In this document: piece after piece, positions 11,201 to 33,000 of the stretch | How positions within the stretch are numbered: position 1 is the stretch's first letter | How the letters are laid out: every line of letters begins with the position of its first letter | Source of the DNA: Galaxea fascicularis | Lineage: Eukaryota; Cnidaria; Anthozoa; Scleractinia; Euphylliidae | Reading direction: 5' to 3' | Length of the DNA: 64,000 bases | Assembly (NCBI GenBank): GCA_948470475.1 | Contig: OX419337.1 | Location: 23,868,791-23,932,790, forward strand | The notes under the pieces: generated by a model | The model's database searches: none | Told to the model about the DNA's origin: nothing | Seen by the model: only the letters and a program-made list of their open reading frames with translations | Translations under genes and position numbers: made by a program

Positions 11201-11814
11201 AGAACTCAAGGAACAATGCCTTTATCCCAACAGGTTTTGCAAAGTAATATATGTTCTTCTTCTCCATCAGATTACCTTGACTACTATACGACTTACAATG
11301 CCCTTCCAATTTGAGCGACTATTTCCATACTAAAGTCATCACCTCAACTCACTACTCCTCAACCACAAGTACTGCTCATCTAATCTAATAAGCAGCAGTT
11401 GTATCAGAGTGACTCTCCTTTATTTCAAAATCTCGGCTACCAATCAAGAACTCAGTTAAGTCTCTGTTCCATATAGCACGCACGGCATCTAAAACCCTCA
11501 TAAGACAACATTGCTAACCCGTGCTACAACCCTTGTCCATGATGACTTTGTGGTACGTTAAAGATCCCAACCACTGATCACAAAGAGCAGGTGACGTAGT
11601 TACCGGTGTTGTGGTCTGGCCTCATATAGGGTTAACCTTATTGTACCTTCCCCCCTGGGACAGAATTCTCTAAGAAAAATCACTACGAGCTAGTATAAAC
11701 CTAAAGCAGTATGACAATTTATAAGGTTTCCTTCTTTTCCAGAACTGCTACGATGACATTAATGCCATGCTATCTTAAATTAGAGTACCATTAAATTTCT
11801 TGAAGTTGAATTTT

Positions 11815-11859
<45 letters not shown>

Positions 11860-12024
11860 GGTTAAAAGTGCTTCCTGAGCCAACAAAGATGTAAACCAAA
11901 AGGATCACAAGGATTCCCAGTCCTGATTCGGTGAATGGTAAAAACTGGTTAAAAAAGAGACCGAAATTGGACAACTTTTGGTTTAAACCAAAAGTTGTCC
12001 AATTTCGGTCTCTTTTTTAACCAG

Positions 12025-12067
<43 letters not shown>

Positions 12068-14949
12068 GAAGCGAGGATGGACAACTTCTGACGTTAAAAA
12101 AAGATTAAAACTATAATAAAACGTTTCGGTCAAAGACCTTCTTCAGTTATTACAACTTTAGAATAAAAACGGACCTTAAATAGGATAAAAGTGCTAAAGA
12201 TTACGTAATTACATGTGACAACTAACTGACTAACGAATAAGGTACGAGATTACAAAAAAGAACAACAAGTAGTGGTAATTAATAGACGACAAAAAAGCAG
12301 AATCAGGGGAGCGAAAAAATACTGAATAGACGCCACTATGAACAACTAACAAAAGAGGGGTAAAAATTAAGTAATAAAAATCTGGCTAAAACTAACACAG
12401 CAACTGAAGAAGCAATGCAAGGATTAGAAGCGAATGTCTAGAGATCAGAAAGGTAACCCACCCCGACGTAGAAATCAAGCGTAACAGCGTAACAAAATCC
12501 CAAAACGAGGCCTTTGGAGCCCGAAAGGGCCGACAAACAACAAAATCCCCGGGGGGGCCCTTAAACAATATCGTAATAAGTTCCCCAAACAGGGCCTATG
12601 AGTCCAATCGACACCCAAAAGGCCTTTTTTTCTTTTCAGTGCATCGATCAGGTGCGGGCTTTAAACAACCTTGAAGAGGTCGATAGGCTTTTAATCACAA
12701 AAGAGGCTTATTGGAGTGCCCAGCTGTTCTCTCTGGCACCTCACGGCTTAAATAAAAGGAAGGAATTTCATTCTTAAAACAGAATCTGTTATAATTAATT
12801 TTCCCCCTTTCAGCTTACGTTCTTGCGTGATCAATCGTTCAAAGGCCCTTTTCTTGGATTTTGTCAGCCTTTTGGGTGTCGATTGGACTCATAGGCCCTG
12901 TTTGGGGAACTTATTACGATATTGTTTAAGGGCCTTCCCAGGGATTTTGTTGTTTGTCGGCCCTTTCGGGCTCCAAAGGCCTCGTTTTGGGATTTTGTTA
13001 CGCTGTTACGCTTGATTTCTACGTCGGGGTGGGTTACCTTTCTGATCTCTAGACATTCGCTTCTAATCCTTGCATTGCTTCTTCAGTTGCTGTGTTAGTT
13101 TTAGCCAGATTTTTATTACTTAATTTTTACCCCTCTTTTGTTAGTTGTTCATAGTGGCGTCTATTCAGTATTTTTTCGCTCCCCTGATTCTGCTTTTTTG
13201 TCGTCTATTAATTACCACTACTTGTTGTTCTTTTTTGTAATCTCGTACCTTATTCGTTAGTCAGTTAGTTGTCACATGTAATTACGTAATCTTTAGCACT
13301 TTTATCCTATTTAAGGTCCGTTTTTATTCTAAAGTTGTAATAACTGAAGAAGGTCTTTGACCGAAACGTTCTATTATAGTTTTTATCTTTTTTAACGTCA
13401 GAAGTTGTCCATCCTCGCTTCCTTTTTAACGTTTTACATTCATTCATGCTGTGAGGTTTGGACTGAGAATCCTACTGATCCTCCTGACGCAGTGACACCT
13501 TTGTTGGCTTGAGAGACCTACTACTATATATATAATATATATATATATATATAAATTCTTCTTGAGTAGAACGTGTTTCGTAGAGCGCTCAACTCAATCG
13601 ATTGAGGAGCATTAACTATTACTTCACAGAAGTTCAGGTTTTACGAGTAATCATCGTTTTATTGCTACAGAACTGTTTCGTATGGTACAAGGACCACACT
13701 CATCAGGCAATTTTAACGACTGAACTGTTGGAATTGGGAAGCTGGCAGTTAAATACGAAAATTTGAATGGTTGCTATAGTAAATGCGTAACATACAAAGA
13801 GTTTCTAGATATAAGAAGGATTATATGTCGTTATTTTAAAATTACGTTACTCTAAAGTTCCGGAGTACATATCGGTTTCTGTGGGGGCATGAACTTGCTA
13901 ATTCGTTTCTTCTGTTAAGGCTACACAGTTCTTTTTTACATATGATTATGAACTTTTCATTCAGACAAAGACTACATTTCTTGCTAATGTTGCTGTATGG
14001 TTTACATTTCTTAAGAATTTTCCATTTAATCTGAAACGGTTTCTTAGCGTCTTGTAAGTTCCAAACGTGTTTGGAAAGCTCTGTCTCATTCCTTCTTTTC
14101 GAATGTCGGAAGGATGTTTTGTGATTCCCGTAGTGGATGGCTTTTCTGGAAGCATTTTTCGACGATATGTACTTTACAAGATTTTCAACAGACACACACT
14201 CAAGCTAAGCTACTCATGTATGCCAAACATGAAATCCATCATATCGTCACACAACAAACACGTTCTTTCAAATACAAATGCACAAACACCGCAACCTGAC
14301 ACCTGCAATTGTAGAAAAAAGCCTGATTGCCCACTCGAAGGAAAATGTCTCCAAACTAACGTAATCTATCAAGCCACAGTCACCACCGAGACAACAACTG
14401 AAACCTACGTTGGACTAGCTACAAACTTTAAGGAACGCTACGGGAATCACAAAACATCCTTCCGACATTCGAAAAGAAGGAATGAGACAGAGCTTTCCAA
14501 ACACGTTTGGAACTTACAAGACGCTAAGAAACCGTTTCAGATTAAATGGAAAATTCTTAAGAAATGTAAACCATACAGCAACATTAGCAAGAAATGTAGT
14601 CTTTGTCTGAATGAAAAGTTCATAATCATATGTAAAAAAGAACTGTGTAGCCTTAACAGAAGAAACGAATTAGCAAGTTCATGCCCCCACAGAAACCGAT
14701 ATGTACTCCGGAACTTTAGAGTAACGTAATTTTAAAATAACGACATATAATCCTTCTTATATCTAGAAACTCTTTGTATGTTACGCATTTACTATAGCAA
14801 CCATTCAAATTTTCGTATTTAACTGCCAGCTTCCCAATTCCAACAGTTCAGTCGTTAAAATTGCCTGATGAGTGTGGTCCTTGTACCATACGAAACAGTT
14901 CTGTAGCAATAAAACGATGATTACTCGTAAAACCTGAACTTCTGTGAAG

Positions 14950-15032
<83 letters not shown>

Positions 15033-18000
15033 CAGTTATAAACTTTAGGTCATTGTGAATATTTGAAATCATGTATTCACGATTCTTGTTAAAGACAACC
15101 CAGTGAGAAAATGTATCAAGAGTTATTTGACCACTGAACAAATCCTTAAACAGAGGACCTCTAATTAACCTTGCAAGAGAGTAAAAGCACCTCTAGTCAC
15201 ATACGAGAAAATACCACAGGTGAGTACCAAATGGCAGTATTACTACTCTGTCAAAGAGAGAGATTTATTACGTATTAGCTTCACAAACTGATAAGACTTC
15301 GACAACGACTTATTATTGGCGAGGAGACCTCCAAAAACCACAAGTTTTGTACTATAGGTCTACTCACGAGATGTAAAAGTCGAGTGAGGGACGACTGGGG
15401 GCATTCATTCATGATTAAAGAGAAAGTTGTATCAACCTCATATGATACTGGACAGAGAATCTGAGCTGGTAAGACCATTTGGTAAAGAATTGGTAAAGAA
15501 TTCCAATTTTTAGTCCTTTGAAAAGCGATTGGACCATATGCTCCATTTCATCTAGTGATACAGGCGAGTGTTAGATTATCAGTTGGAAATAAGCTGAGAA
15601 CCGAACAACGCGGAACATCGCGTTTATAAAAAGATACCTTGATTCGGCAGTATGTAGAGTGACAATCATGTCAGATATTAAGTCAACAATACGCACAATG
15701 TGAAGTAAGTTTTGTCTCTCAGCAAAGAATTAAGAAGCCAGAAGAGAACAACCTTCCGACTCTTTAACACGATAAGCAGTACACCAATACGCCACAAGAA
15801 TCCAAACCGATAACAGAGTAAAAGCACCCAAAAAGAGACAAGAACAAGGGACTTACAACAGTTTTCATAAGGGTTTTAAACCACCGACTAGAAATCAACT
15901 AGTCTACCACTAGTCTTTCAAATCACAGGGTTCTCAATAGAAGGCGGACCCGGCGATTGATCGCCGCTTTCTTTGGAATTTATACCCGCTTACTTTGTGT
16001 TTAAGTCGCTTTTCTTTTCTTTGTTTTGTTTCTTCTGGCTTTGCTAATGAGCCTCCTACTTTATCAGTGATCACCTCCTGCTTAAAAATCTATTGAGAAC
16101 CCTGAAACGAGTCACATTTTATTAGACAACACTTACTTCATGTTTGTGAACTTTTCACTAACTACATCTGCAGGATACGTTCCCCTATCTTTGAGTAACA
16201 AGTCATGTTAAACCTGGAGGAACTAAGATAACACCAGCCACAAAAGTGGTAACCGCTACAAAATAAAGATACATGCAACGTTGGCAAGCATACCTAGAAC
16301 TGCTAGAAATACTCGTAGTGACGGAGGACGATGCAGTTGTTGTTGGTGGTGTTGACACGCTTGTGGTGATTGATGTGGATAAAGTTGTTGTACTTGGTGT
16401 GGACACACTTGAACTCAATGAGCTTGACCACGTACTGCTAGAGACACTTGTAGTGGCAGATGTGGATGACGTTGTTGTCGTTGGAGTAGACACACTTGAA
16501 CTCAATGAGCTTGACGATGTACTGCTAGAGACACTTGTAGTGGCAGATGTGGATGAAGTTGTTGTAGTTGGTGTGGACACACTTGAACTCAATGAGCTTG
16601 ACGATGTACTGCTAGAGACACTTGTAGTGGCAGATGTGGATGAAGTTGTTGTACTCGGTGTGGACACACTTGAACTCAATGAACTTGACGATGTACTGCT
16701 AGAGACACTTGTAGTGGCAGCTGTGGATGAAGTTGTTGTACTCGGTGTGGACACACTTGAACTCAATGAGCTTGACGATGTACTGCTAGAGACACTTGTA
16801 GTGGCAGATGTTGATGAAGTTGTTGTACTCGGTGTGGGCACACTTGAACTCAGTGAGCTTGACGATGTACTGCTAGAGACACTTGTAGTGGCAGATGTTG
16901 ATGAAGTTGTTGTCGTTGGTGTGGACACACTTGAACTCAATGAGCTTGACGATGAACTGCTAGAGACACTTGTGGTGGCAGATGTTGATGAAGTTGTTGT
17001 CGTTGGTGTGGACACACTTGAACTCAATGAGCTTGACGATGTACTGCTAGAGACACTTGTAGTGGCAGATGTTGATGAAGTTGTTGTCGTTGGTGTGGAC
17101 ACACTTGAACTCAATGAGCTTGACGATGTACTGCTAGAGACACTTGTAGTGGCAGATGTTGATGAAGTTGTTGTCGTTGGTGTGGACACACTTGAACTCA
17201 ATGAGCTTGACGATGTACTGCTAGAGACACTTGTAGTGGCAGATGTTGATGAAGTTGTTGTCGTTGGTGTGGACACACTTGAACTCAATGAGCTTGACGA
17301 TGTACTGCTAAAGACACTTGTAGTGGCAGATGTTGATGAAGTTGTTGTCGTTGATGTGGACACACTTGAACTCAATGAGCTTGACGATGTACTGCTAGAG
17401 ACACTTGTAGTGGCAGATGTTGATGAAGTTGTTGTCGTTGGTGTGGACACACTTGAACTCAATGAGCTTGACGATGTACTGCTAGAGACACTTGTAGTGG
17501 CAGATGTTGATGAAGTTGTTGTACTCGGTGTGTACAAACTTGAACTCAATGAGCTTGACGACGTACTGCTAGAGACACCTGTAGTGGCAGGTGTTGATGA
17601 AGTTGTTGTCGTTGGTGTGGACACACTTGAACTCAATGAACTTGACGATGTACTGCTAGAGACACTTGTAGTGGCAGATGTTGATGAAGTTGTTGTCGTT
17701 GGTGTGGACACACTTGAACTCAATGAGCTTGACGACGTACTGCTAGAGACACTTGTAGTGGCAGATGTGGATGAAGTTGTTGTCGTTGGTGTGGACACAC
17801 TTGAACTCAATGAGCTTGACGACGTACTGCTAGAGACACTTGTAGGGGCAGATGTTGATGAAGTTGTTGTCGTTGGTGTGGACACACTTGAACTCAATGA
17901 GCTTGACGTTGTACTGCTTGACACACCACTGGTCAGTGTGCTAGACGAGGTTGTAGTTGTCGGTGTGGACACACTGGAACTTGTCGACGAACTTGAGCGT

Positions 18001-21000
18001 GAACTATTAATAAGGAAAAGTAATCAATGTAATTGTTTTTATCCATTTCGTCTTAGAGAACTCTTGCATACTGAAGTGCAACTAGACAACATAACCTGGG
18101 TGAGGAGTGTTCTGGTTTTCCACTCTTCTTCTTTAAACGATCATCACCGCTAGTTAGATTGTTTCGAACTGCAGCAACTTAACAGCATACCCTCGAGAAT
18201 ATGATTTCTCTTAGTCTTAGAATTTGGCTAATAATACATTACACTGACATTACCCTTTACATGTCTTAGTTTCTGCATCTTTATTTTGGGGATGCGATTA
18301 TTTACCAATCTCATTCAATCACCTCTTACCAAAGAAAAACGACACTAAAGCAAAATATGTTTTCTTGAACGCCTCTTCCCTATTTATAATAAAGCTAATA
18401 ACCTGCTAGATGTAACTGACGTAATTGACGTCGAGGTTCGTTCTGGCGGTTTCAAAGTCGGCGGCGCCCTACTTGATGTAGGAATGGAGTATTGTGTCCC
18501 TGTACTGGTCGTTGCTGAGGTGAAAATTGTGGCTGTGCTTTTCTGTGAGATAGATTTAAGCGAAGTTGACGTGGATGTGGAGCTGAAAAAAAGATGCTTA
18601 TTAAATGTGATAGAATGGCAAAGCACTCTACGTGTAAGTCTGTTCAGCAAAATTTAGTGAGCGGTTCAACATGAAATTACAAGAAATTCTTCCTATATGT
18701 GAGTCTAGGATTAATCTTAAAGAGCTCCCATTACTGGTGCCTTTGCTCTAATAATTGCCATCACTATAACCATTTGTATCGGCATCATCAAAAACAACAC
18801 CATCGTCGTCATCCTTAAAATTGCCGGGTCATCAGTATTCATCCTAATCGACATCGTCCCAGAACTATCATTATGACCTCCTTATCGTCAGCATCATCAT
18901 CATTATCAAAATCATTGCTGTCACTATCGTCATCATCAGCAAAAGCTGTGACCACCCGAAAGCCCTTTACCCTTAAAGACCCATCCCGGACCAATATGCT
19001 TTGCGCGCGTCTATTATTGTTTTGACAAACACAAGGAGGAGGCGCCATTGTGTGATGCGGTCGCCGAAGTTTGAATATTTCGCGTGCTTGTCGGTTGATC
19101 AAAGAACAATATGAGTTCATCATTGTCTTTATTAGAAAACTCTCTGGAGGAGAGAAATTTAGGCGAAAGATGGCTCAATAGTAGCGGATAACGAGAAGGA
19201 GGAAGACGAAGCCGTCGAGATTGAAGAGGTTTGAGAAAAATTTTCGGCAACTCCAAATGTTCCCTGCCTTCCATCTCGTTCACACGGGCTATTAAAATGA
19301 ACAAAGCTGTGATACATAAGCATTGTAGCAAAGCTATAAGAAATAAACAAACCATCGAATTCTAGGTCCTAAACTTGATGCTCTGTGGTCTGTTTGATGC
19401 AGTAGATACTAAGCAAAGGCAGTTCGTTGCTTCCGAGAACCTAAGAGTAATTTTCCTCTCATGCCATAGTTCAAACACAGATGAACGTACCATGATATAA
19501 CGGGCACAACCAGATTAACGTGGCCTCCACTTACGCGAAGGTACGGCCATCAAAATGCCAAACGATCAGAGCTTTCTGGGAGTTCATCATATTCACTTTA
19601 CAGATATTGCAATTCCAAAAAACTCATCAAAATCAACACACAAGTGAAATAGTGAAATCCTTTGGGCAACAAAACGTAAAATCAAGCTCCATAAACGCCG
19701 GATGGAAGCGAATTGCTGTGGATTCAACGGTCTTCACTTGACTTTTCGACTCACAAAAAATATGGCGACCTGACTTGACGCGCGCAAAGCATATTGGTCC
19801 GGCATGGGTCTTTAAACAAAAGCAGAGGAATTGTATTTGGATACTTCAAATAGTGGTGGGACACGCTGAAAACAAATAACTAACATTACGTCTTGTTTAA
19901 CTCATCCTTAAACATTTACCTTAAGCTACTTAAACCAGTAACTGACGTTGAAGACGTTGTTGTACTTGGTGTAGACACACTTAAACTCGATGAACTGGAA
20001 GACGTACTGCTTCCCGAACTTGTGGTGACTAAACTGGATAAGGTCGTTGTACTCGGTGTGGACACACTTGAACTCAATGAGCTTGACGATGTACTGCTAG
20101 AGACACTTGTAGTGGCAGATGTTGATGAAGTTGTTCTCGTTGGTGTGGACACACTTGAACTCAATGACCTTGACGATGTACTGCTAGAGAAACTTGTAGT
20201 GGCAGATGTGGATGAAGTTGTTGTCGTTGGAGTGGACACACTTGAACTCAATGAGCTTGACGACGTACTGCTAGAGACACTTGTAGTGGCAGATGTTGAT
20301 AAAGTTGTTGTCGTTGGTGTAGACACACTTGAACTCAGTGAGCTTGACGATGTACTGCTAGAGACACTTGTAGTGGCAGGTGTTGATGAAGTTGTTGTCG
20401 TTGGTGTGGACACACTTGAACTCAATGAGCTTGACGATGTACTGCTAGAGACACTTGTAGTGGCAGGTGTTGATGAACTTGTTGTCCTTGGTGTGGACAC
20501 ACTTGAACTCAATGAGCTTGACGATGTACTGCTAGAGACACTTGTAGTGGCAGATGTTGATGAAGTTGTTGTACTCGGTCTGGACACACTTGAACTCAAT
20601 GAGCTTGACGACGTACTGCTAGAGACACTTGTAGTGGCAGATGTTGATGAAGTTGTTGTACTCGGTGTGGACACACTTGAACTCAATGAGCTTGACGATG
20701 TACTGCTAGAGACACTTGTAGTGGCAGGTGTTGATAAAGTTGTTGTACTCGGTGTGGACACACTTGAACTCAATGAGCTTGACGATGTACTGCTAGAGAT
20801 ACTTGTGGCGACAGATGTTGATGAAGTTGTTGTCGTTGGAGTAGACACACTTGAACTCAATGAGCTTGACAATGTACTGCTAAAGACACTTGTAGTGGCA
20901 GGTGTTGATAAAGTTGTTGTCGTTGGAGTAGACACACTTGAACTCAATGAGCTTGACGACGTACTGCTAGAGACACTTGTAGTGGCAGATGTTGATGAAG

Positions 21001-24000
21001 CTGTTGTACTCGGTGTGGACACACTTGAACTCAATGAACGTGACGATGTACTGCTAAAGACACTTGTAGTGGCAGATGTTAATGAAGTTCTCGTCGTTGG
21101 TGTGGACACACTTGAACTCAATGAGCTTGACGATGTACTGATAGAGACACTTGTAGTGGCAGATGTTGATGAAGTTGTTGTACTCGGTGTGGACACACTT
21201 GAACTCAGTGAGCTTGACGATGTACTGCTAGAGACACTTGTAGTGGCAGATGTTGATGAAGTTGTTGTCGTTGGTGTGGACGCACTTGAACTCAATGAGC
21301 TTGACGACGTACTGCTAGAGACACTTGTAGTGGCAGATGTTGATGAAGTTGTCGTCGTTGGTGTGGACACACTTGAACTCAATGAGCTTGACGACGTACT
21401 GCTAGAGACACTTGTAGTGGCAGATGTGGATGAAGTTGTTGTCGTTGGTGTCGACACACTTAAACTCAATGAGCTTGACGACGTACTGCTAGAGATACTT
21501 GTAGTGGCAGGTGTTGATGAAGTTGTTGTCGTTGGTGTGGACACACTTGAACTCAATGAGCTTGACGATGTACTGCTAGAGACACTTGTAGTGGCAGTTG
21601 TTGATGAAGTTGTTGTACTCGGTGTGGACACACTTGAACTCAATGAACTTGACGATCTACTGCTAAAGACACTTGTAGTGGCAGATGTTGATGAAGTTGT
21701 TGTACTCGGTCTGGACACACTTGAACTCAATGAGCTTGACGATGTACTGCTAGAGACACTTGTAGTGGCAGATGTTGATGAAGTTGTTGTACTCGGTGTG
21801 GACACACTTGAACTCAGTGAGCTTGACGATGTACTGCTAGAGACACTTGTAGTGGCAGATGTTGATGAAGTTATCGTCGTTGGTGTGGACACACTTGAAC
21901 TCAATGAGCTTGACGATGTACTGCTAGAAACACTTGTAGTGGCAGGTGTTGCTGAAGTTGTTGTCGTTGGTGTGGACACACTTGAACTCAATGAACTTGA
22001 CGATGTACTGCTAGAGATACTTGTAGTGGCAGGTGTTGATGAAGTTGTCGTCGTTGGTGTGGACACACTTGAACTCAATGAGCTTGACGACGTACTGCTA
22101 GAAACACTTGTAGTGGCAGATGTGGATGAAGTTGTTGTCGTTGGTGTGGACACACTTGAACTCAATGAACTTGACGATGTACTGCTAGAGATACTTGTAG
22201 TGGCAGGTGTTGATGAAGTTGTTGTCGTTGGTGTGGACACACTTGAACTCAATGAGCTTGACGATGTACTGCTAAAGACACTTGTAGTGGCAGATGTTGA
22301 TGAAGTTGTCGTCGTTGGTGTGGACACACTTGAACTCAATGAGCTTGACGACGTACTGCTAGAAACACTTGTAGTGGCAGATGTTGATGAAGTTGTTGTC
22401 GTTGGTGTGGACACACTTGAACTCAATGAACTTGACGATGTACTGCTAGAGATACTTGTAGTGGCAGGTGTTGATGAAGTTGTTGTCGTTGGTGTGGACA
22501 CACTTGAACTCAATGAGCTTGACGATGTACTGCTAGAGACACTTGTAGTGGCAGATGTTGATGAAGTTGTTGTACTCGGTGTTGACACACTTGAACTCAG
22601 TGAGCTTGACGATGTACTGCTAGAGACACTTGTAGTGGCAGATGTTGATGAAGTTGTCGTCGTTGGTGTGGACACACTTGAACTCAATGAGCTTGACGAC
22701 GTACTGCTAGAGACACTTGTAGTGGCAGATGTGGATGAAGTTGTTGTCGTTGGTGTGGACACACTTGAACTCAATGAACTTGACGATGTACTGCTAGAGA
22801 TACTTGTAGTGGCAGGTGTTGATGAAGTTGTTGTCGTTGGTGTGGACACACTTGAACTCAATGAGCTTGACGATGTACTGCTAGAGACACTTGTAGTGGC
22901 AGATGTTGATGAAGTTGTCGTCGTTGGTGTGGACACACTTGAACTCAATGAGCTTGACGACGTACTGCTAGAGACACTTGTAGTGGCAGATGTGGATGAA
23001 GTTGTTGTCGTTGGTGTCGACACACTTAAACTCAATGAGCTTGACGACGTACTGCTAGAGATACTTGTAGTGGCAGGTGTTGATGAAGTTGTTGTCGTTG
23101 GTGTGGACACACTTGAACTCAATGAGCTTGACGATGTACTGCTAGAGACACTTGTAGTGGCAGTTGTTGATGAAGTTGTTGTACTCGGTGTGGACACACT
23201 TGAACTCAATGAACTTGACGATCTACTGCTAAAGACACTTGTAGTGGCAGATGTTGATGAAGTTGTTGTACTCGGTGTGGACACACTTGAACTCAATGAG
23301 CTTGACGATGTACTGCTAGAGACACTTGTAGTGGCAGATGTTGATGAAGTTGTTGTACTCGGTGTGGACACACTTGAACTCAGTGAGCTTGACGATGTAC
23401 TGCTAGAGACACTTGTAGTGGCAGATGTTGATGAAGTTGTCGTCGTTGGTGTGGACACACTTGAACTCAATGAGCTTGACGATGTACTGCTAGAAACACT
23501 TGTAGTGGCAGGTGTTGCTGAAGTTGTTGTCGTTGGTGTGGACACACTTGAACTCAATGAACTTGACGATGTACTGCTAGAGATACTTGTAGTGGCAGGT
23601 GTTGATGAAGTTGTCGTCGTTGGTGTGGACACACTTGAACTCAATGAGCTTGACGACGTACTGCTAGAAACACTTGTAGTGGCAGATGTGGATGAAGTTG
23701 TTGTCGTTGGTGTGGACACACTTGAACTCAATGAACTTGACGATGTACTGCTAGAGATACTTGTAGTGGCAGGTGTTGATGAAGTTGTTGTCGTTGGTGT
23801 GGACACACTTGAACTCAATGAGCTTGACGATGTACTGCTAAAGACACTTGTAGTGGCAGATGTTGATGAAGTTGTCGTCGTTGGTGTGGACACACTTGAA
23901 CTCAATGAGCTTGACGACGTACTGCTAGAAACACTTGTAGTGGCAGATGTTGATGAAGTTGTTGTCGTTGGTGTGGACACACTTGAACTCAATGAACTTG

Positions 24001-27000
24001 ACGATGTACTGCTAGAGATACTTGTAGTGGCAGGTGTTGATGAAGTTGTTGTCGTTGGTGTGGACACACTTGAACTCAATGAGCTTGACGATGTACTGCT
24101 AGAGACACTTGTAGTGGCAGATGTTGATGAAGTTGTTGTACTCGGTGTTGACACACTTGAACTCAGTGAGCTTGACGATGTACTGCTAGAGACACTTGTA
24201 GTGGCAGATGTTGATGAAGTTGTCGTCGTTGGTGTGGACACACTTGAACTCAATGAGCTTGACGACGTACTGCTAGAGACACTTGTAGTGGCAGATGTGG
24301 ATGAAGTTGTTGTCGTTGGTGTGGACACACTTGAACTCAATGAACTTGACGATGTACTGCTAGAGATACTTGTAGTGGCAGGTGTTGATGAAGTTGTTGT
24401 CGTTGGTGTGGACACACTTGAACTCAATGAGCTTGACGATGTACTGCTAGAGACACTTGTAGTGGCAGATGTTGATGAAGTTGTCGTCGTTGGTGTGGAC
24501 ACACTTGAACTCAATGAGCTTGACGACGTACTGCTAGAAACACTTGTAGTGGCAGATGTTGATGAAGTTGTTGTCGTTGGTGTGGACACACTTGAACTCA
24601 ATGAACTTGACGATGTACTGCTAGAGATACTTGTAGTGGCAGGTGTTGATGAAGTTGTTGTCGTTGGTGTGGACACACTTGAACTCAATGAGCTTGACGA
24701 TGTACTGCTAGAGACACTTGTAGTGGCAGTTGTTGATGAAGTTGTTGTACTCGGTGTGGACACACTTGAACTCAATGAACTTGACGATCTACTGCTAAAG
24801 ACACTTGTAGTGGCAGATGTTGATGAAGTTGTTGTACTCGGTGTGGACACACTTGAACTCAATGAACTTGACGATGTACTGCTAGAGATACTTGTAGTGG
24901 CAGGTGTTGATGAAGTTGTTGTCGTTGGTGTGGACACACTTGAAATCAATGAGCTTGACGATGTACTGCTAGAGACACTTGTAGTGGCAGATGTTGATGA
25001 AGTTGTCGTCGTTGGTGTGGACACACTTGAACTCAATGAGCTTGACGATGTACTGCTAGAGATACTTGTAGTGGCAGGTGTTGATGAAGTTGTTGTCGTT
25101 GGTGTGGACACACTTGAACTCAATGAGCTTGACGATGTACTGCTAGAGACACTTGTAGTGGCAGTTGTTGATGAAGTTGTTGTACTCGGTGTGGACACAC
25201 TTGAACTCAATGAACTTGACGATCTACTGCTAAAGACACTTGTAGTGGCAGATGTTGATGAAGTTGTTGTACTCGGTGTGGACACACTTGAACTCAATGA
25301 GCTTGACGATGTACTGCTAGAGACACTTGTAGTGGCAGATGTTGATGAAGTTGTTGTACTCGGTGTGGACACACTTGAACTCAGTGAGCTTGACGATGTA
25401 CTGCTAGAGACACTTGTAGTCGCAGATGTTGATGAAGTTGTCGTCGTTGGTGTGGACACACTTGAACTTAATGAGCTTGACGGCGTACTGCTAGAGACAC
25501 TTGTAGTGGAAGATGTGGATGAAGTTGTTGTCGTTGGTGTGGACACACTTGAACTCAATGAGCTTGACGACGTACTGCTAGAGACACTTGTAGTGGCAGA
25601 TGTTGATGAAGTTGTTGTCGTTGGTGTGGACACACTTGAACTTAATGAGCTTGACGTTGTGCTGCTTGACACACTACTGGTCAATGTGCTAGACGAGGTT
25701 GCAGTTGTCGGTGTGGACACACTGGAACTTGTCGACGAACTTGAGCGTGAACTAATAATAAGGAAAAGTAATAAATGTAATTTTTTTCTATCCATTTCTT
25801 CCTAGAGAATTCTTGCATACTGAAGTGAAACTAGACACCATAACTTGGGTGAGGAATGTTCTGGTTTTGCACTCTTCTTGTTTAAACCATTATCACCGCT
25901 AGTTAGATTGTTCCGAACTGCAGCAACACAACAGCATACCCTCGAGAATGATTTCTCTTAGTCTTGGAATTTGGCTAATAACACATTACCTTGACATTAG
26001 CCTTTACATGTCTTACTTTCTGCATCTTTAATTTGGGGATGCGATTATTTACCAATCTCATTCAATCACCTCTTACCAAAGAAAAACGACACTAAAGCAA
26101 AATATGTTTTCTTGAACGCCTCTTCTCCATTTATAATAAAGCTAACAACCTGCTAGATGTAATTGACGTCGAGGTTCGTTGTGGCGGTTTCAAAGTCGGC
26201 GGCGCCCTACTTGATGTAGGAATGGAGTATTGTGTCCCTGTACTGGTCGTTGCTGAGGTGAAAATTGTGGCTGTGCTTTTCTGTGAGATAGATTTAATCG
26301 AAGTTGACGTGGATGTGGAGCTGAAAAAAAGATGCTTATTAAATGTGATAGAATGGCAAAGCACTCTACATGTAAATCTGTTCAGCAAAATTTAGTGAGC
26401 GGTTCAACATGAAATTAGAAGAAATTCTCCTTATATGTGAGTCTAGAATTAATCTTAAAGAGCTCCCATTACTGGTGCCCTCGCTCTAATAATTGCCATC
26501 ACTATAACCATTCGTATCAGCATCATCAAAAACAACACCATCGTCGTCATCCTTAAAATTTCTAGGTCATCGGTATTCATCCTAATCGACATCGTCCCAG
26601 AACCATCATTATGACCTCCTTATCGTCAGCATCATCGTCATTATAAAAATCGTTGCTGTCACTATCGTCACCCTCAGCAAAAGCTGTGACCACCCGAGAG
26701 TCCTTTACCCTTAAACAAAAGCAGAGGAATTGTATTTGGATACTTCAAATAGTGGTGGGACACGCTGAAAACAAATAACTAACGTTACGTCTTGTTTACC
26801 TCATCGTGAAACATTTACCTTAAGCTACTTGAACCAGTAACTGATGTTGATGACGTTGTTGTACTTGGTGTAGACACACTTAAACTCGATGAACTAGAAG
26901 ACGTACTGCTTGACAAACGTGTGGTGACTAAAGTGGATGAGGTTGTTGTTGTCGGTGTGGACACACTTGAACTCAATGAGCTGGACGACTTACTGCTAAA

Positions 27001-30000
27001 GACACTTGTAGTGACAGATGTGGATGAAGTTGTAGTTGGTGTGGACACACTGTAGCTGGATGAGCTGTAGGATGTGCTACTTGACACACTTGTCGTTAGT
27101 GACGAGGACGAAGTCGTTGTAGTTGGTGTGGAGACACTGTAGCTAGATGAGCTGTAAGATGTGCTACTTGACACACTCGTCGTTAGTGACGAGGACGAAG
27201 TCGTTGTAGTCGGTGTGGACACACTGTAGCTAGATGAGCTGTAGGATGTGCTACTTGACACACTGGTCGTTAGTGACGAGGACGTAGTCGTTGTAGTCGG
27301 TGTGGACACACTGTAGCTGGATGAGCTGTAGGATGTGCTACTTGACACAATGGTCGTTAGTGACGAGGAGGAAGTCGTTGTACTTGGCGTAGACACACTT
27401 AAACTCGATGAACTGGAAGACGTACTGCTTGACAAACTTGTGGTGACTAAAGTGGATGAGGTTGTTGTTGTCGATGTGGACACACTTGAACTCAATGAGC
27501 TGGACGACGTACTGCTAAAGACACTTGTAGTGACAGATGTGGATGAAGTTGTAGTTGGTGTGGTTACACTGTAGCTGGATGAGCTGTAGGATGTGCTGCT
27601 TGACAGACTTGTAGTTAGTGACGAGGACGTAGTCGTTGTAGTCGGTGTGGACACACTGTAGCTAGATGAGCTGTAGGATGTGCTGCTTGACACACTTGTC
27701 GTTAGTGACGAGGACGAAGTCGTTGTAGTCGGTGTGGACACACTGTAGCTAGATGAGCTGTAGGATGTGCTACTTGACACACTGGTCGTTAGTGACGAGG
27801 ACGAAGTCGTTGTAGTCGGTGTGGACACACTGTAGCTAGATGAGCTGTAAGATGTGCTACTTGACACACTTGTCGTTAGTGACGAGGACGAAGTCGTTGT
27901 AGTTGGTGTGGACACACTGTAGCTAGATGAGCTGTAGGATGTGCTACTTGACACACTTGTCGTTAGTGACGAGGACGAAGTCGTTGTAGTTGGTGTGGAC
28001 ACACTGTAGCTAGATGAGCTGTAGGATGTGCTGCTTGACACACTTGTCGTTACTGACGAGGACGAAGTTGTTGAAGTTGGTGAAGACACACTGGAACTGT
28101 ATGACGTTGAAGTAGAACTACATGAATTGAACAAGAAAAAGAAAAGTAAATGAACGGCATTCCGAGTTCTAGTTCGTGCCTTTTGTTTAGCAACAAGTGA
28201 CCTTGTTGCGAGTAGTTTCCATTCTAACTGAACTTCAAATTACAGTGTTTCCTATTGACAGGTTTTTGAATAAGTAATCATTTTTACAATTGTCGGCTTC
28301 GTGAGGTGGCGTGTTGTTCGAACACGAAACCTGTTGCGCGTCACTGAATTGTTAAGGAGATGGAAATCGGTAGCTAGTCACTGCAGATATTTAGATTTAC
28401 TCCCATCATCGCTTGCTTCTTCTCATCGTCAGCATTATCACAATTACCAACACGATCAAAGTGTCCATCGCCCTTGTCGTCACCCTCATCATCATCACCA
28501 TCCCCACCCTCAACAATATCGTCATTGTCATCATCACCATCATCATCATCATAAAGCCAACCTCTTCACCATCATCATCATCATCGTTATCGTCAACATC
28601 ATCATCATTGTGAAGCAATGACACGAATCCAGACTTGTTACACGAAAAGAAATTCGTGTCCTTAGTATTAAATTAGTTTCTTTTACTGGTTTAGTAATTA
28701 TGTATGTAAGTAATTATGTATACGCATATATATGTGAAATAAAAAATAGAAATAAAATAGAAATAAATCATTATCAACCAGCCATTATCATCACCATCAC
28801 CATCACGATTATCACGGCCGCATAACTGTAAGTAATGCTAAAATACCTGATACTACTTGTGCTTGATACAATACTAGTTGTAGACGACGTTACAGACGTT
28901 GTGCCACCCACACATGGCCTACTGCACTGCTGAGTTTGATTGACGCATTTTTTACCATCAAAGAAAGTGCCATTGGGACACGAACATCCTTCAACACGGG
29001 GACCACGACAGCATCTCGCTCCCAGCTTTTGGCAGTCTTTCGAGGGCCTCTCACAAGTACTGGGTAAACTGATATCGGGGAGGTACCCTCCGGTGTTTTG
29101 ACAAGGACGGCAACAAGGAAGCTCTGCAAATAACCACAACGACAACGATATTAAACCCGGGTAAAGCAAAGTCTCTGTCCAAAAGAATTGAACAAGCCAA
29201 GTAGCTCATTGTTGATGGCGCTATGGCTCAATTTGGTTGCATAATGACAGTAAACACATCCCCTAAACGCAATGTTAGTCTATCATAGCAATACCCAGCA
29301 CGAAGAACCAAGATCATCATTACTACCCCCTGGATGGTTTATATTGTATCACATGATCCCTAGCAAACGGAGTAGCTAAAGGTATTACGAGTCCCTACGT
29401 TACCCGGCATGACGGGACTAAGAGTATCACTACTACCCTCTTAATGGATGCTCATCCATCACAGGACACCCACCATTAAGTGACTAGGAGTATTACCAAT
29501 CCCCACTGCATGAGATGCTAATCTACCACAGGATAACCACCATGAAGTGACTACGAGTATTACATCTCACCGCTGGACGTGATGCTAGTCCATCACAGGA
29601 TACCCAGCTTAAATTGACCAGGAGAACTACTTCTCCAGTCTGGATGAGATGCTAGTCCATACAGGGTGTTTCAAAAGTTCGTTCCGATTTGTTTTCTTCT
29701 AACGTTTCATTATTTATTTAACCTACCTCGTTAAAAATTAGGTATATTATTTTTTGCTTATTTTTCATTCGATCATTGAAATTATTAGTAACCAGAATGC
29801 CCGCCTTTATCTTTAATGACATTTTCTAAGCGCCTAGGCATAGAATGTGCGAGTTCCTTTAGCGTGTCAAGAGTCACATTTTTCCATGCAAAGCGTAGTC
29901 GCCTTTTAAGCTGTTTCATCGTTTTGGGGGCTGGATCTTTGTCCGTTGTCTCATCAATGATACTCCAGATGTTCTCAATGGGATTGAAATCAGGAGAGTT

Positions 30001-33000
30001 CGCTGGCCAGCCATCCTTGGTTACAAAGTTTGGCAAATTCTTTTGACACCATGACTGAGTTGCCTGTGAAGTGTGAGCCGGTGCTCCATCCTGAACGAAT
30101 GTCATCTCTTTCTTTGAGCTAAACAACTTCCTCTCTATCGGGCCACCTGTCGCATGCCGCCTTGATGTTAATGGTTTCACTTCTTTCTCAAGGATTTGGT
30201 TGATGTAGTACTCAGAAGTTAAGGTTTGGCCTGTGGGTAGCATGTGTAACTTTGTGAGCCCACGACCCGTCATGCCACCCCACACCATCACCTTCGCACT
30301 TTGCTTCACTTGGAAAGCTGGAGGAACATCACATTCCTTCGAGCCCCATACGATATCGTTTTTGGATTAGGGTAATGGAAAAGATATTTAGGACACTCAT
30401 CTGTAAATAAAAAATTGTCCCAATCTTCTGCTGTCAGGTTCGCGTATTTCTTGGCGAATCTCAAACGGGCTTTTCTTTGATTTTCGCTCAACAAAGGTAT
30501 TTTCTTTCGCTTGAAAGCCTTCCATCCTTTCGTAGTCATGTATCTCCACACCGTTATGTTCGAAACTTCGATATTTTTCTGCTGAAGACTCTTTGCAATC
30601 TTCCTTGTTGAATTGTTCCGTTTGTACTTTGCTTTCTCGATTGATTTTCGAGCACAATTGGTCAAAACAGACGGTCGTCCACTCCTTGGTTTGTCTTCGA
30701 AGCACCCTCTTTTCGACCACTTGTTCACCCAACGTTCCGTCTTGTTAAAAAATTTAGCGATTTCTTTGACTGAATGACCAGATGATCGTAATATTGCTGC
30801 TTGAGCTCTAGCAAAAAAAATGCCTGACTTCATTTTCGTGACAGAGAAGGCAGAAAGTTCAGGAAAAAAATCACAGAATAACAAAAAAGTCGGGAAAGGA
30901 ACGACATACACAAGGTGAGGGGAAAATGGCGGGAAAACGCGTGTGTGCACATTTGGCGCGAAAATCGAAACAAAGGCATCTAATCGACGACTAAAATTTC
31001 TATTGCCAGCTATTTTAATAAATTCTCTACCTCAATTTGTTAAAAAAGTTCTAAGAAACAATTGATTTGTTTAAATATTTAGCAACTTTAAATCGGAACG
31101 AACTTTTGAAACACCCTGTACATATTTCATTACAGCGATTCATTTTATCGTACTTACCACAAAAGCCTTCCCGACGCCATGTGATTGATATACCATGTTG
31201 ATTACAAGCTCGCACGTACGCTGCTACCGCTGTACAGAAACATGCACAGTCGCCTCCCTTGTGGCACAAGCAGGCCTCATGCTTGCAAGCCTTGAAGTAG
31301 CGGGAAGGGTCCACAGTGTTATGGCACACCGTGAAATTAGGATTCGTGTTAATCTCATTACAACCTAAAATGCAGAGGATGGTTAAAATAAAGATACATA
31401 CATCAGTTTAAAAATTAAGAGAAAGGTTAATTAGAAAATAATGAAATCCAAAAACTGTCTAAAAGGACTGTACGCAATCGTTTCTAGGGTTAGTCGTATT
31501 TCATCTACTCCACACTAGGAGGTGAAGCACCACTCCCTGTAGTGTCGCTTATTGTAAGGTGCAGGAACCGTGCAGGGGGAGGGGCCGGGGGAGGGGGGGA
31601 GGGGCCGGGGGAGGGGGGAGCAGGTCCCAACCCCACTTTTCGTGGATAAGATAATAATTTAAGTCAAATAAATTTGCAAAAAAGGTACTTCCACAGGAAA
31701 ATAGTTGTCGGTTACAGCTGGCGGACCTTTCGGGAAAACATTCAAATTTATGATTGTTTCGTTTCGATCCTAATTTTGACGGGGTAAGTATTATGAATCA
31801 AACTGAGTTCGATGCGTTTTAAGGTAATTCCCGTGAAAAGGATCTACTATCCAGAATTTATTCAAACCTGGCACAATTGATAGCCATGCATAGGACATTG
31901 AAAAAATGTAATTAAAAGATGGGGTCACCATGCTTGTTTTCGCCCTGCATGCCTGTTATTCTAAGTGGCTTTTGCTGAGTTGCGCGAGAATGTTCGAAAC
32001 TTGATCAACCGCGGAAAAATTGTTATTACAGAGCAAAAACTATGAATATTACTGAAACCTAGGGCCTATTCGTCTTTCTGGGCTATAATCTTTCAGAAAA
32101 GTGGTCTCAAATTGCCTGATGTTGCAAATAATGGAAGGAAATTGGACCGCTATCTCATATTCTCATACTCCTCCCTGGCTCCAAATGCAGAGTTTTATGT
32201 CATTTATACACAAATACTACAACTTCTACTAGCCAACTTTCTTCTTGAAATATGCTTTTCCTGTACCTACTACGAGCAAATAACACCAATAAAAACGGAG
32301 GGTCACCGTACTCGTTTCTTCGCAACAGGACGTCAAGGGGAAAATTTCGGCTTCAAACTGTCATTTTAATGCGAAGGGACTGGGTCGAGTTCTTAAATGG
32401 TCGACCATATGCACGGTTCTTACGATTTTCTCTGCTATTTTCGCTTATTTATTCTTTGCAACAAGTTATAAACGGTGAAGTAAATTACAAGAGTGATCAG
32501 AGAAGTCGGTAAATAAAACCTGGCGAACTTTGATGTTGCAATGTTATGCGCAGTAGGATCTGCGCAGTGCAAAACAAGGGAATTACCTTAACAATTGCTA
32601 GAGTCAACCCTCCTCCTCTCAATTGTAGAGGCGAGAGCGGGCCCCGCACTTTCAAGGCTGTTCTGCAGGCCCTGAGGAGGTTATAACTCGCGCGTGTGGA
32701 AATCAAATCGCTTAGCGTAAAGAAATTATCTTGCGACAAGAGCGAACAAGCTTGGTGAAGAAAATTTATATGACTTTCACATTTGGCAAACTGTGTTGAA
32801 AAGGTTACAGACGAGAATAGTAGTGTGGATGTTATAGTCTGATGTTACATCCAAAATGCCCGATTCAATCCGCTGTGACTACACTCAGCGAAAAGTAGAC
32901 ACAGACCCAAATTACCTTTCTCGGCCCAACCCAATCGATCTGGATTCTCCTCGCAGGGATAAAGGCTCACAGGCTTTGTACAGTCCATCTCATTCTTCCA

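Follow-up and report, generated by a model that had tools for sequence, protein, structure and literature searches.

The window analyzed here, a 64-kb stretch of Galaxea fascicularis DNA, holds a 5′-truncated, head-to-head double copy of a Penelope-like element (PLE) inserted in a (TA)n tract (Table 1). Its arms form an inverted repeat of 517 nt with 100% complementarity, separated by a spacer of 304 nt; a preliminary description had given a perfect repeat of 513 bp, of which the perfection stands and the length does not. With an exact inverted repeat and one hammerhead ribozyme (HHR) per arm, the mirror-image arrangement given there is confirmed. The interior is asymmetric: the minus-strand stretch at 14134-14171 is attached to the left arm with a gap, and its equivalent is contiguous in another insertion (L041).

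Table 1. Features of the double insertion in the window
Feature	Position	Strand	Detail
TA-rich tract, left end of insertion (target)	13525..13552	.	sequence
64-nt tail past the short 3′ end, left arm only	13553..13616	-	
Left arm: PLE 3′ part (endonuclease frame end, 3′ region, HHR)	13617..14133	-	
HHR	13655..13718	-	core from 13706, predicted cut between 13666 and 13665
Inner piece: element sequence normally preceding the right-copy start	14134..14171	-	12-residue minus-strand reading
Penelope-type protein, C-terminal part with putative GIY-YIG endonuclease, 5′-truncated	14160..14729	+	
Right arm: PLE 3′ part, terminating at the short site	14438..14954	+	
Proposed RNA start: TATA-like TATTTAA (14816) and initiator-like TCAGTC (14848)	14816..14853	+	inference
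HHR	14853..14916	+	core from 14865, predicted cut between 14905 and 14906
(TA)n tract, right end of insertion (target)	14953..15030	.	

Mucin-type Ser/Thr repeats lie on the minus strand on both sides of the insertion, VWD, C8 and TIL domains are found farther upstream on that strand, and candidate splice sites, one GT donor and one AG acceptor, were assigned by eye. Judging from these sequence features, the insertion probably sits in an intron of a mucin-type gene, and the setting proposed in the preliminary description is plausible on that footing. Elsewhere in the window an 87-bp mucin-type Ser/Thr repeat forms very long arrays (16267-17958 and 19884-25805) with long open frames on both strands, and minus-strand frames at 29785-31031 by eye resemble a Tc1/mariner transposase. 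A perfect 46-nt palindrome (hairpin) at 11939-12030 adjoins TA repeats and gave weak cmscan matches to several miRNA/sRNA families, all under their gathering scores.

The frame at 14058-14729 matches Penelope-type proteins from residue 35 (position 14160) onward. It matches one relative, P0002, at 86% over 189 aa, and has 769 homologues at E up to 1e-3, few of which carry a Pfam label. Its GIY-YIG match (PF01541) scored 17.1 bits, under the cut-off of 22.6, and a search for solved structures with P0002 found none. The Penelope-type homologues bear out the earlier identification of a Penelope-like endonuclease frame adjoining the HHR, with the GIY-YIG domain itself putative. Tandem PLE copies spaced 3,428 bp apart occur on contig C11; one of these units (L074) has a 528-aa frame followed by the endonuclease frame, and its relatives include an Oculina patagonica protein (76% over 57% of the query). 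Reverse transcriptase (RT)-like motifs in the 528-aa frame were recognized by eye only, and the frame had no Pfam RT match at E up to 0.1. At L074 (C11:12039000-12042000) the PLE protein frame is interrupted by a stretch somewhat under 1 kb, both ends of which read VWFQKISIPPP in opposite directions, resembling a nested element with inverted ends.

Hammerhead ribozymes of the element

Both HHRs are intact, one per strand, with core and stems present as first reported, and their coordinates needed slight correction. Each has the type I core (CUGANGA...GAAA) and an NUH cleavage triplet, here GUA. Stem I comprises 5 bp plus an outer CGTT/AACG helix. The 7-bp stem II of the preliminary description was recovered; its 4-bp stem III with a 2-nt UU loop is obtained only if A15.1-U16.1 is counted, and a 3-bp stem III capped by a GUUC loop is the likelier form on steric grounds. 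A pattern scan of the 64 kb returned just these two motifs, against 0 matches in 60 sequences simulated from its dinucleotide frequencies. The arms being exact complements, the second motif adds no independent evidence.

Folding of a single 74-mer was modestly better than that of shuffled sequences (z, -1.91; 9 of 200 shuffles were equally good). Stems I and II survive in its minimum-energy fold, but part of the core pairs in a way that replaces stem III, the hammerhead fold of a single HHR having -12.4 kcal/mol versus -15.3 for the best fold. Two 56-mers can form a double hammerhead with an extended stem III (-31.4 kcal/mol), an arrangement known for newt and viroid HHRs (PMC6155905); the window locus has no second sense copy of the HHR in cis.

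The check set beforehand, a covariance-model search, went against an HHR when Rfam models were used: the motif was unmatched at gathering scores, and no HHR family appeared at E up to 10 in 11700-15100. RF00008 reached 14.9 bits (E, 0.77) on a 111-nt stretch in another register, and its genome-wide search gave 0 matches, as did its 14 controls. We also compared five variants from this one genome: the window copy (family A), L053 and L045 (B), L051 (C) and L031 (D). Across them, 11 of 22 pairs in the hammerhead structure changed on both sides and 95.4% of cells were paired; 0 of 500 shuffles did as well, and slid structures were 24 to 48% paired. The core was identical in all five sequences, in which compensatory change upholds the three helices of a type I HHR. 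Core, stem III and triplet were retained in all 37 family-A copies that span the motif among the fetched loci, the window included. Families A and B agree in 55/67 aligned columns of the HHR, in 88/153 directly upstream of it and in 23/43 directly downstream. We take the motif to be the PLE's own minimal type I ribozyme.

A second inverted repeat, at 12061-12623 and 12867-13428 (98.8% over 563 nt), possibly represents a further PLE family. Near both of its outer edges lies CTGAAGAAGGTCTTTGACCGAAACG, a degenerate hammerhead-like motif that also flanks L041, L050 and L057.

Head-to-head insertions across the assembly

In the 416.6-Mb assembly, at least 49 places matched the arm, at least 47 the tail end and at least 40 family B. 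We retained at least 55 family-A places, comprising 42 of the 49 arm matches (7 were dropped as other families or internal fragments) and 13 new ones from the tail end. Among the matches listed, family-A neighbors within 10 kb were head-to-head in 21 cases, direct in 2 (one tandem array) and tail-to-tail in 0, with corresponding family-B counts of 13, 0 and 0; an inverted partner was not found among these matches for 11 of 55 family-A and 14 of 40 family-B places. The mirror arrangement is thus not peculiar to this intron; head-to-head is the family's usual insertion form. A 200-kb sample, made up of 20 regions of 10 kb, half of which adjoin the window, contained 0 PLE copies.

The 3′ ends of 43 arms (42 of family A, 1 of family C) fell at a short site in 20 cases and after a tail in 22, and 1 was broken. 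The tail is ∼62 nt long, with the short site 61 to 64 nt upstream of the tail site. Scoring the outer ends by eye, with five A pairs and the D pair each read from two separate pieces, we found one tailed and one short end in each of the 31 scorable insertions (20 A, 10 B, 1 D); the A pair L060/L050, with a broken end, stands outside this set. Most insertion ends enter TA repeats, with exceptions that include L022, L040 and L050. Tandem or inverted pLTRs with an optional tail and an AT-rich target, as expected of a PLE, are present. The HHR cut might have fixed where integrated 3′ ends fall, an idea we rejected because 0 of the 43 arm 3′ ends lie there.

Two loci combine families. At L041 a family-A arm is joined to a family-B arm, which suggests two RNA templates; L045 has a family-A copy with a TA repeat on its 5′ side, plus a family-B arm. 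A third PLE family (D; L031 with L073, C4:25104200-25105350) has its own HHR variant and is likewise head-to-head, with a one-sided tail and TA repeats, its inner join lying just 5′ of the HHR.

Insertion ends near the predicted cut

Short arms have their 5′ ends in two zones. The first, 40 to 71 nt 5′ of the predicted cut, holds the ends of 11 family-A arms and 7 family-B arms (L064, L066-L068); L080 and L081, read by eye, each contribute one arm more. In family A this zone coincides with TATTTAA and TCAGTC, in family B with TCATTC, and both L068 arms and the L036 minus arm terminate on the A of the TCAGTC/TCATTC motif. We take TATTTAA and TCAGTC to be TATA-like and initiator-like, going by motif consensus, and from its sequence this zone may mark the RNA start.

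The second zone lies exactly at the predicted cut, where the L054 plus arm and both arms of L055 and L057 (family A) and of L062 (family B) end. The L056 plus arm and the L064 minus arm (with a TG microhomology) stop one nt short of it. In L055, L057 and L062 the arms share a central GC, leaving up to 2 nt of ambiguity between arms; this does not affect L054 or L056, and the end positions of L063 and L064 are ambiguous. Other arms end 6 to 9 nt 3′ of the cut (L056, +6; L058, +8; L054, +9), and among the arms examined none ended between -39 and -2. The palindromic cut-site join occurs at 3 places genome-wide, with 0 for a reversed control pattern. Ends of L055, L057, L062 and L063 were read from the sequence, as BLAST overran the palindromes by 8 nt, and those of L065, L080 and L081 were read by eye.

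Among 25 insertions with an end in -71 to +48 (14 A, 11 B), leaving out 3 family-B pairs with long inner distances, 4 ended exactly at the cut (P about 7e-4) and 7, two of them ambiguous, within 1 nt of it (P, 1.6e-4). For the cut-proximal 88 nt the counts were 4 of 14 (P, 2e-4) and 7 of 14 (P, 1.4e-5). All of these P values assume uniform, independent ends over a range picked afterwards, and the exact set is four insertions.

That short sister copies end exactly at the predicted cut suggests HHR activity during jumping. The two families differ in the base 5′ of the cut (A in family A, C in family B), which makes a simple RNase preference unlikely. The main rival to ribozyme cutting is that the RT stalls where an uncut HHR folds into its three-way junction. 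The cut does sit at a structural junction, and the ends at +6, +8 and +9 fall in stem I and look like pauses. However, the ends peak at the cut itself in two families whose triplets differ, GUA and GUC, and the arms of other insertions cross the whole HHR to end 40 to 71 nt farther on; we regard stalling as an unlikely source of the cut-site ends.

The insertions can be accounted for if both target strands of (TA)n prime reverse transcription of element RNA, with one cDNA starting at the tail site and the other at the short site 61 to 64 nt upstream. In the resulting structure, the 3′ ends with their HHRs face outward and the truncated 5′ ends meet centrally. The HHR would probably occupy the extreme 5′ end of the element RNA, and, from the insertion ends, uncut and ribozyme-cut RNAs of the family would both be reverse transcribed in vivo. 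The same form might instead arise from one cDNA by self-priming or fold-back, as proposed for rotifer Penelope from palindromic joins (PMC3846280), and here some joins are near-palindromic and the window arms identical. Yet the two ends differ, tailed and tailless, in 31 of 31 scored insertions, arm lengths are frequently unequal, and the joined A and B arms of L041 point to two templates, leaving fold-back of a single cDNA a rather improbable origin.

The explanation we favor overall, and think probable, combines a head-to-head PLE, two-strand priming, HHRs masked at this locus and an HHR that works in the family. Counting against it are the small exact set, the arms that end 6 to 9 nt 3′ of the cut, the copies with no inverted partner among the matches, and the single HHR's preference for another fold. 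It seems somewhat probable that the PLE HHR cuts in vivo, that the cut RNA is reverse transcribed, and that each insertion draws on two templates, copied from the tail site and the short site respectively, one on each (TA)n strand; the ambiguity of 2 nt where arms join palindromically takes a little off our confidence in this reading.

The mucin locus and known systems

Every transcript of the window locus contains one HHR and its antisense, and on either strand the antisense is produced first. In the minimum-energy folds of both transcripts (-1008.7 and -985.7 kcal/mol) the HHR is wholly paired in the hairpin, in agreement with the suggestion that the arms mask each other's ribozymes. Given this predicted masking by the antisense arm in cis, cutting of the mucin pre-mRNA, also raised in the preliminary description, is unlikely, and on these predicted folds both HHRs here are probably passengers that do nothing. 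Service to the mucin gene, as an intronic riboswitch-like or pre-mRNA-cutting ribozyme, might be imagined from the minus-strand HHR lying on the presumed sense strand and from intronic HHRs conserved in amniotes (PMC6155905), but with many near-identical copies elsewhere in the genome and complete pairing with antisense in cis, we consider it highly improbable. Equally hard to credit is an assembly artefact, which the 100% identity across 517 nt could suggest, given that one end alone bears a tail, the inner part is asymmetric and the identical plan recurs on many contigs.

The hammerhead-bearing PLE is itself of a known kind; what is new is the genomic record of insertion ends at the cut site, and our literature search (titles, abstract starts and passages; not exhaustive) returned no report of PLE insertion ends at an HHR cut. 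The finding bears on why PLEs retain HHRs. With cut-site ends in two families, genome assemblies by themselves suffice to test for cutting in vivo. The inverted PLE copies, long known, gain an explicit two-template model from the strict one-tail rule. If the reading is true, genomes carry a direct record of ribozyme activity during transposition.

Minimal type I HHRs of PLEs were reportedly described by Cervera and De la Pena in 2014. The Galaxea motif resembles them in its short stem III, its place in the element's repeated end and its very high copy number (PMC6155905, PMC7229834); in Acropora millepora, for example, more than 6000 type I motifs are recorded, all but 1508 of them like PLE/Terminon variants (PMC7229834). 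It differs in that a stem III of 3 to 4 bp is present and that insertion ends at the cut are recorded.

A biochemical comparison is with Poseidon PAc of Anolis carolinensis, whose protein nicks and extends both strands, and in which two RT start sites delimit the tail (PMC11167929). A pLTR HHR and an AT-rich target are shared; the GIY-YIG endonuclease, the tail between two RT starts and the nicking of both strands would be shared too, being putative in Galaxea. In PAc no RNA-seq ends were seen at the cut and HHR cutting was dispensable in vitro, and its HHR cuts only when PAc protein is added (PMC11167929); the dispensability in vitro and the absent RNA-seq ends count against an HHR working in the family, and the remaining PAc results count for the favored explanation.

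Penelope elements of the rotifer Adineta vaga likewise have head-to-head inverted pLTRs with a tail on one, palindromic inner joins and tandem copies (PMC3846280), and the main text of that paper has 0 occurrences of "hammerhead." In Galaxea, by contrast, the target is usually (TA)n and every scored insertion has one tail.

In R2 and other non-LTR elements, a 5′ HDV-like ribozyme sets the 5′ end of the RNA. The RNA of the Galaxea PLE, likewise a retroelement, would also begin with a self-cleaving ribozyme; the ribozyme class and the element class are different, and uncut RNA of the PLE appears to be used too.
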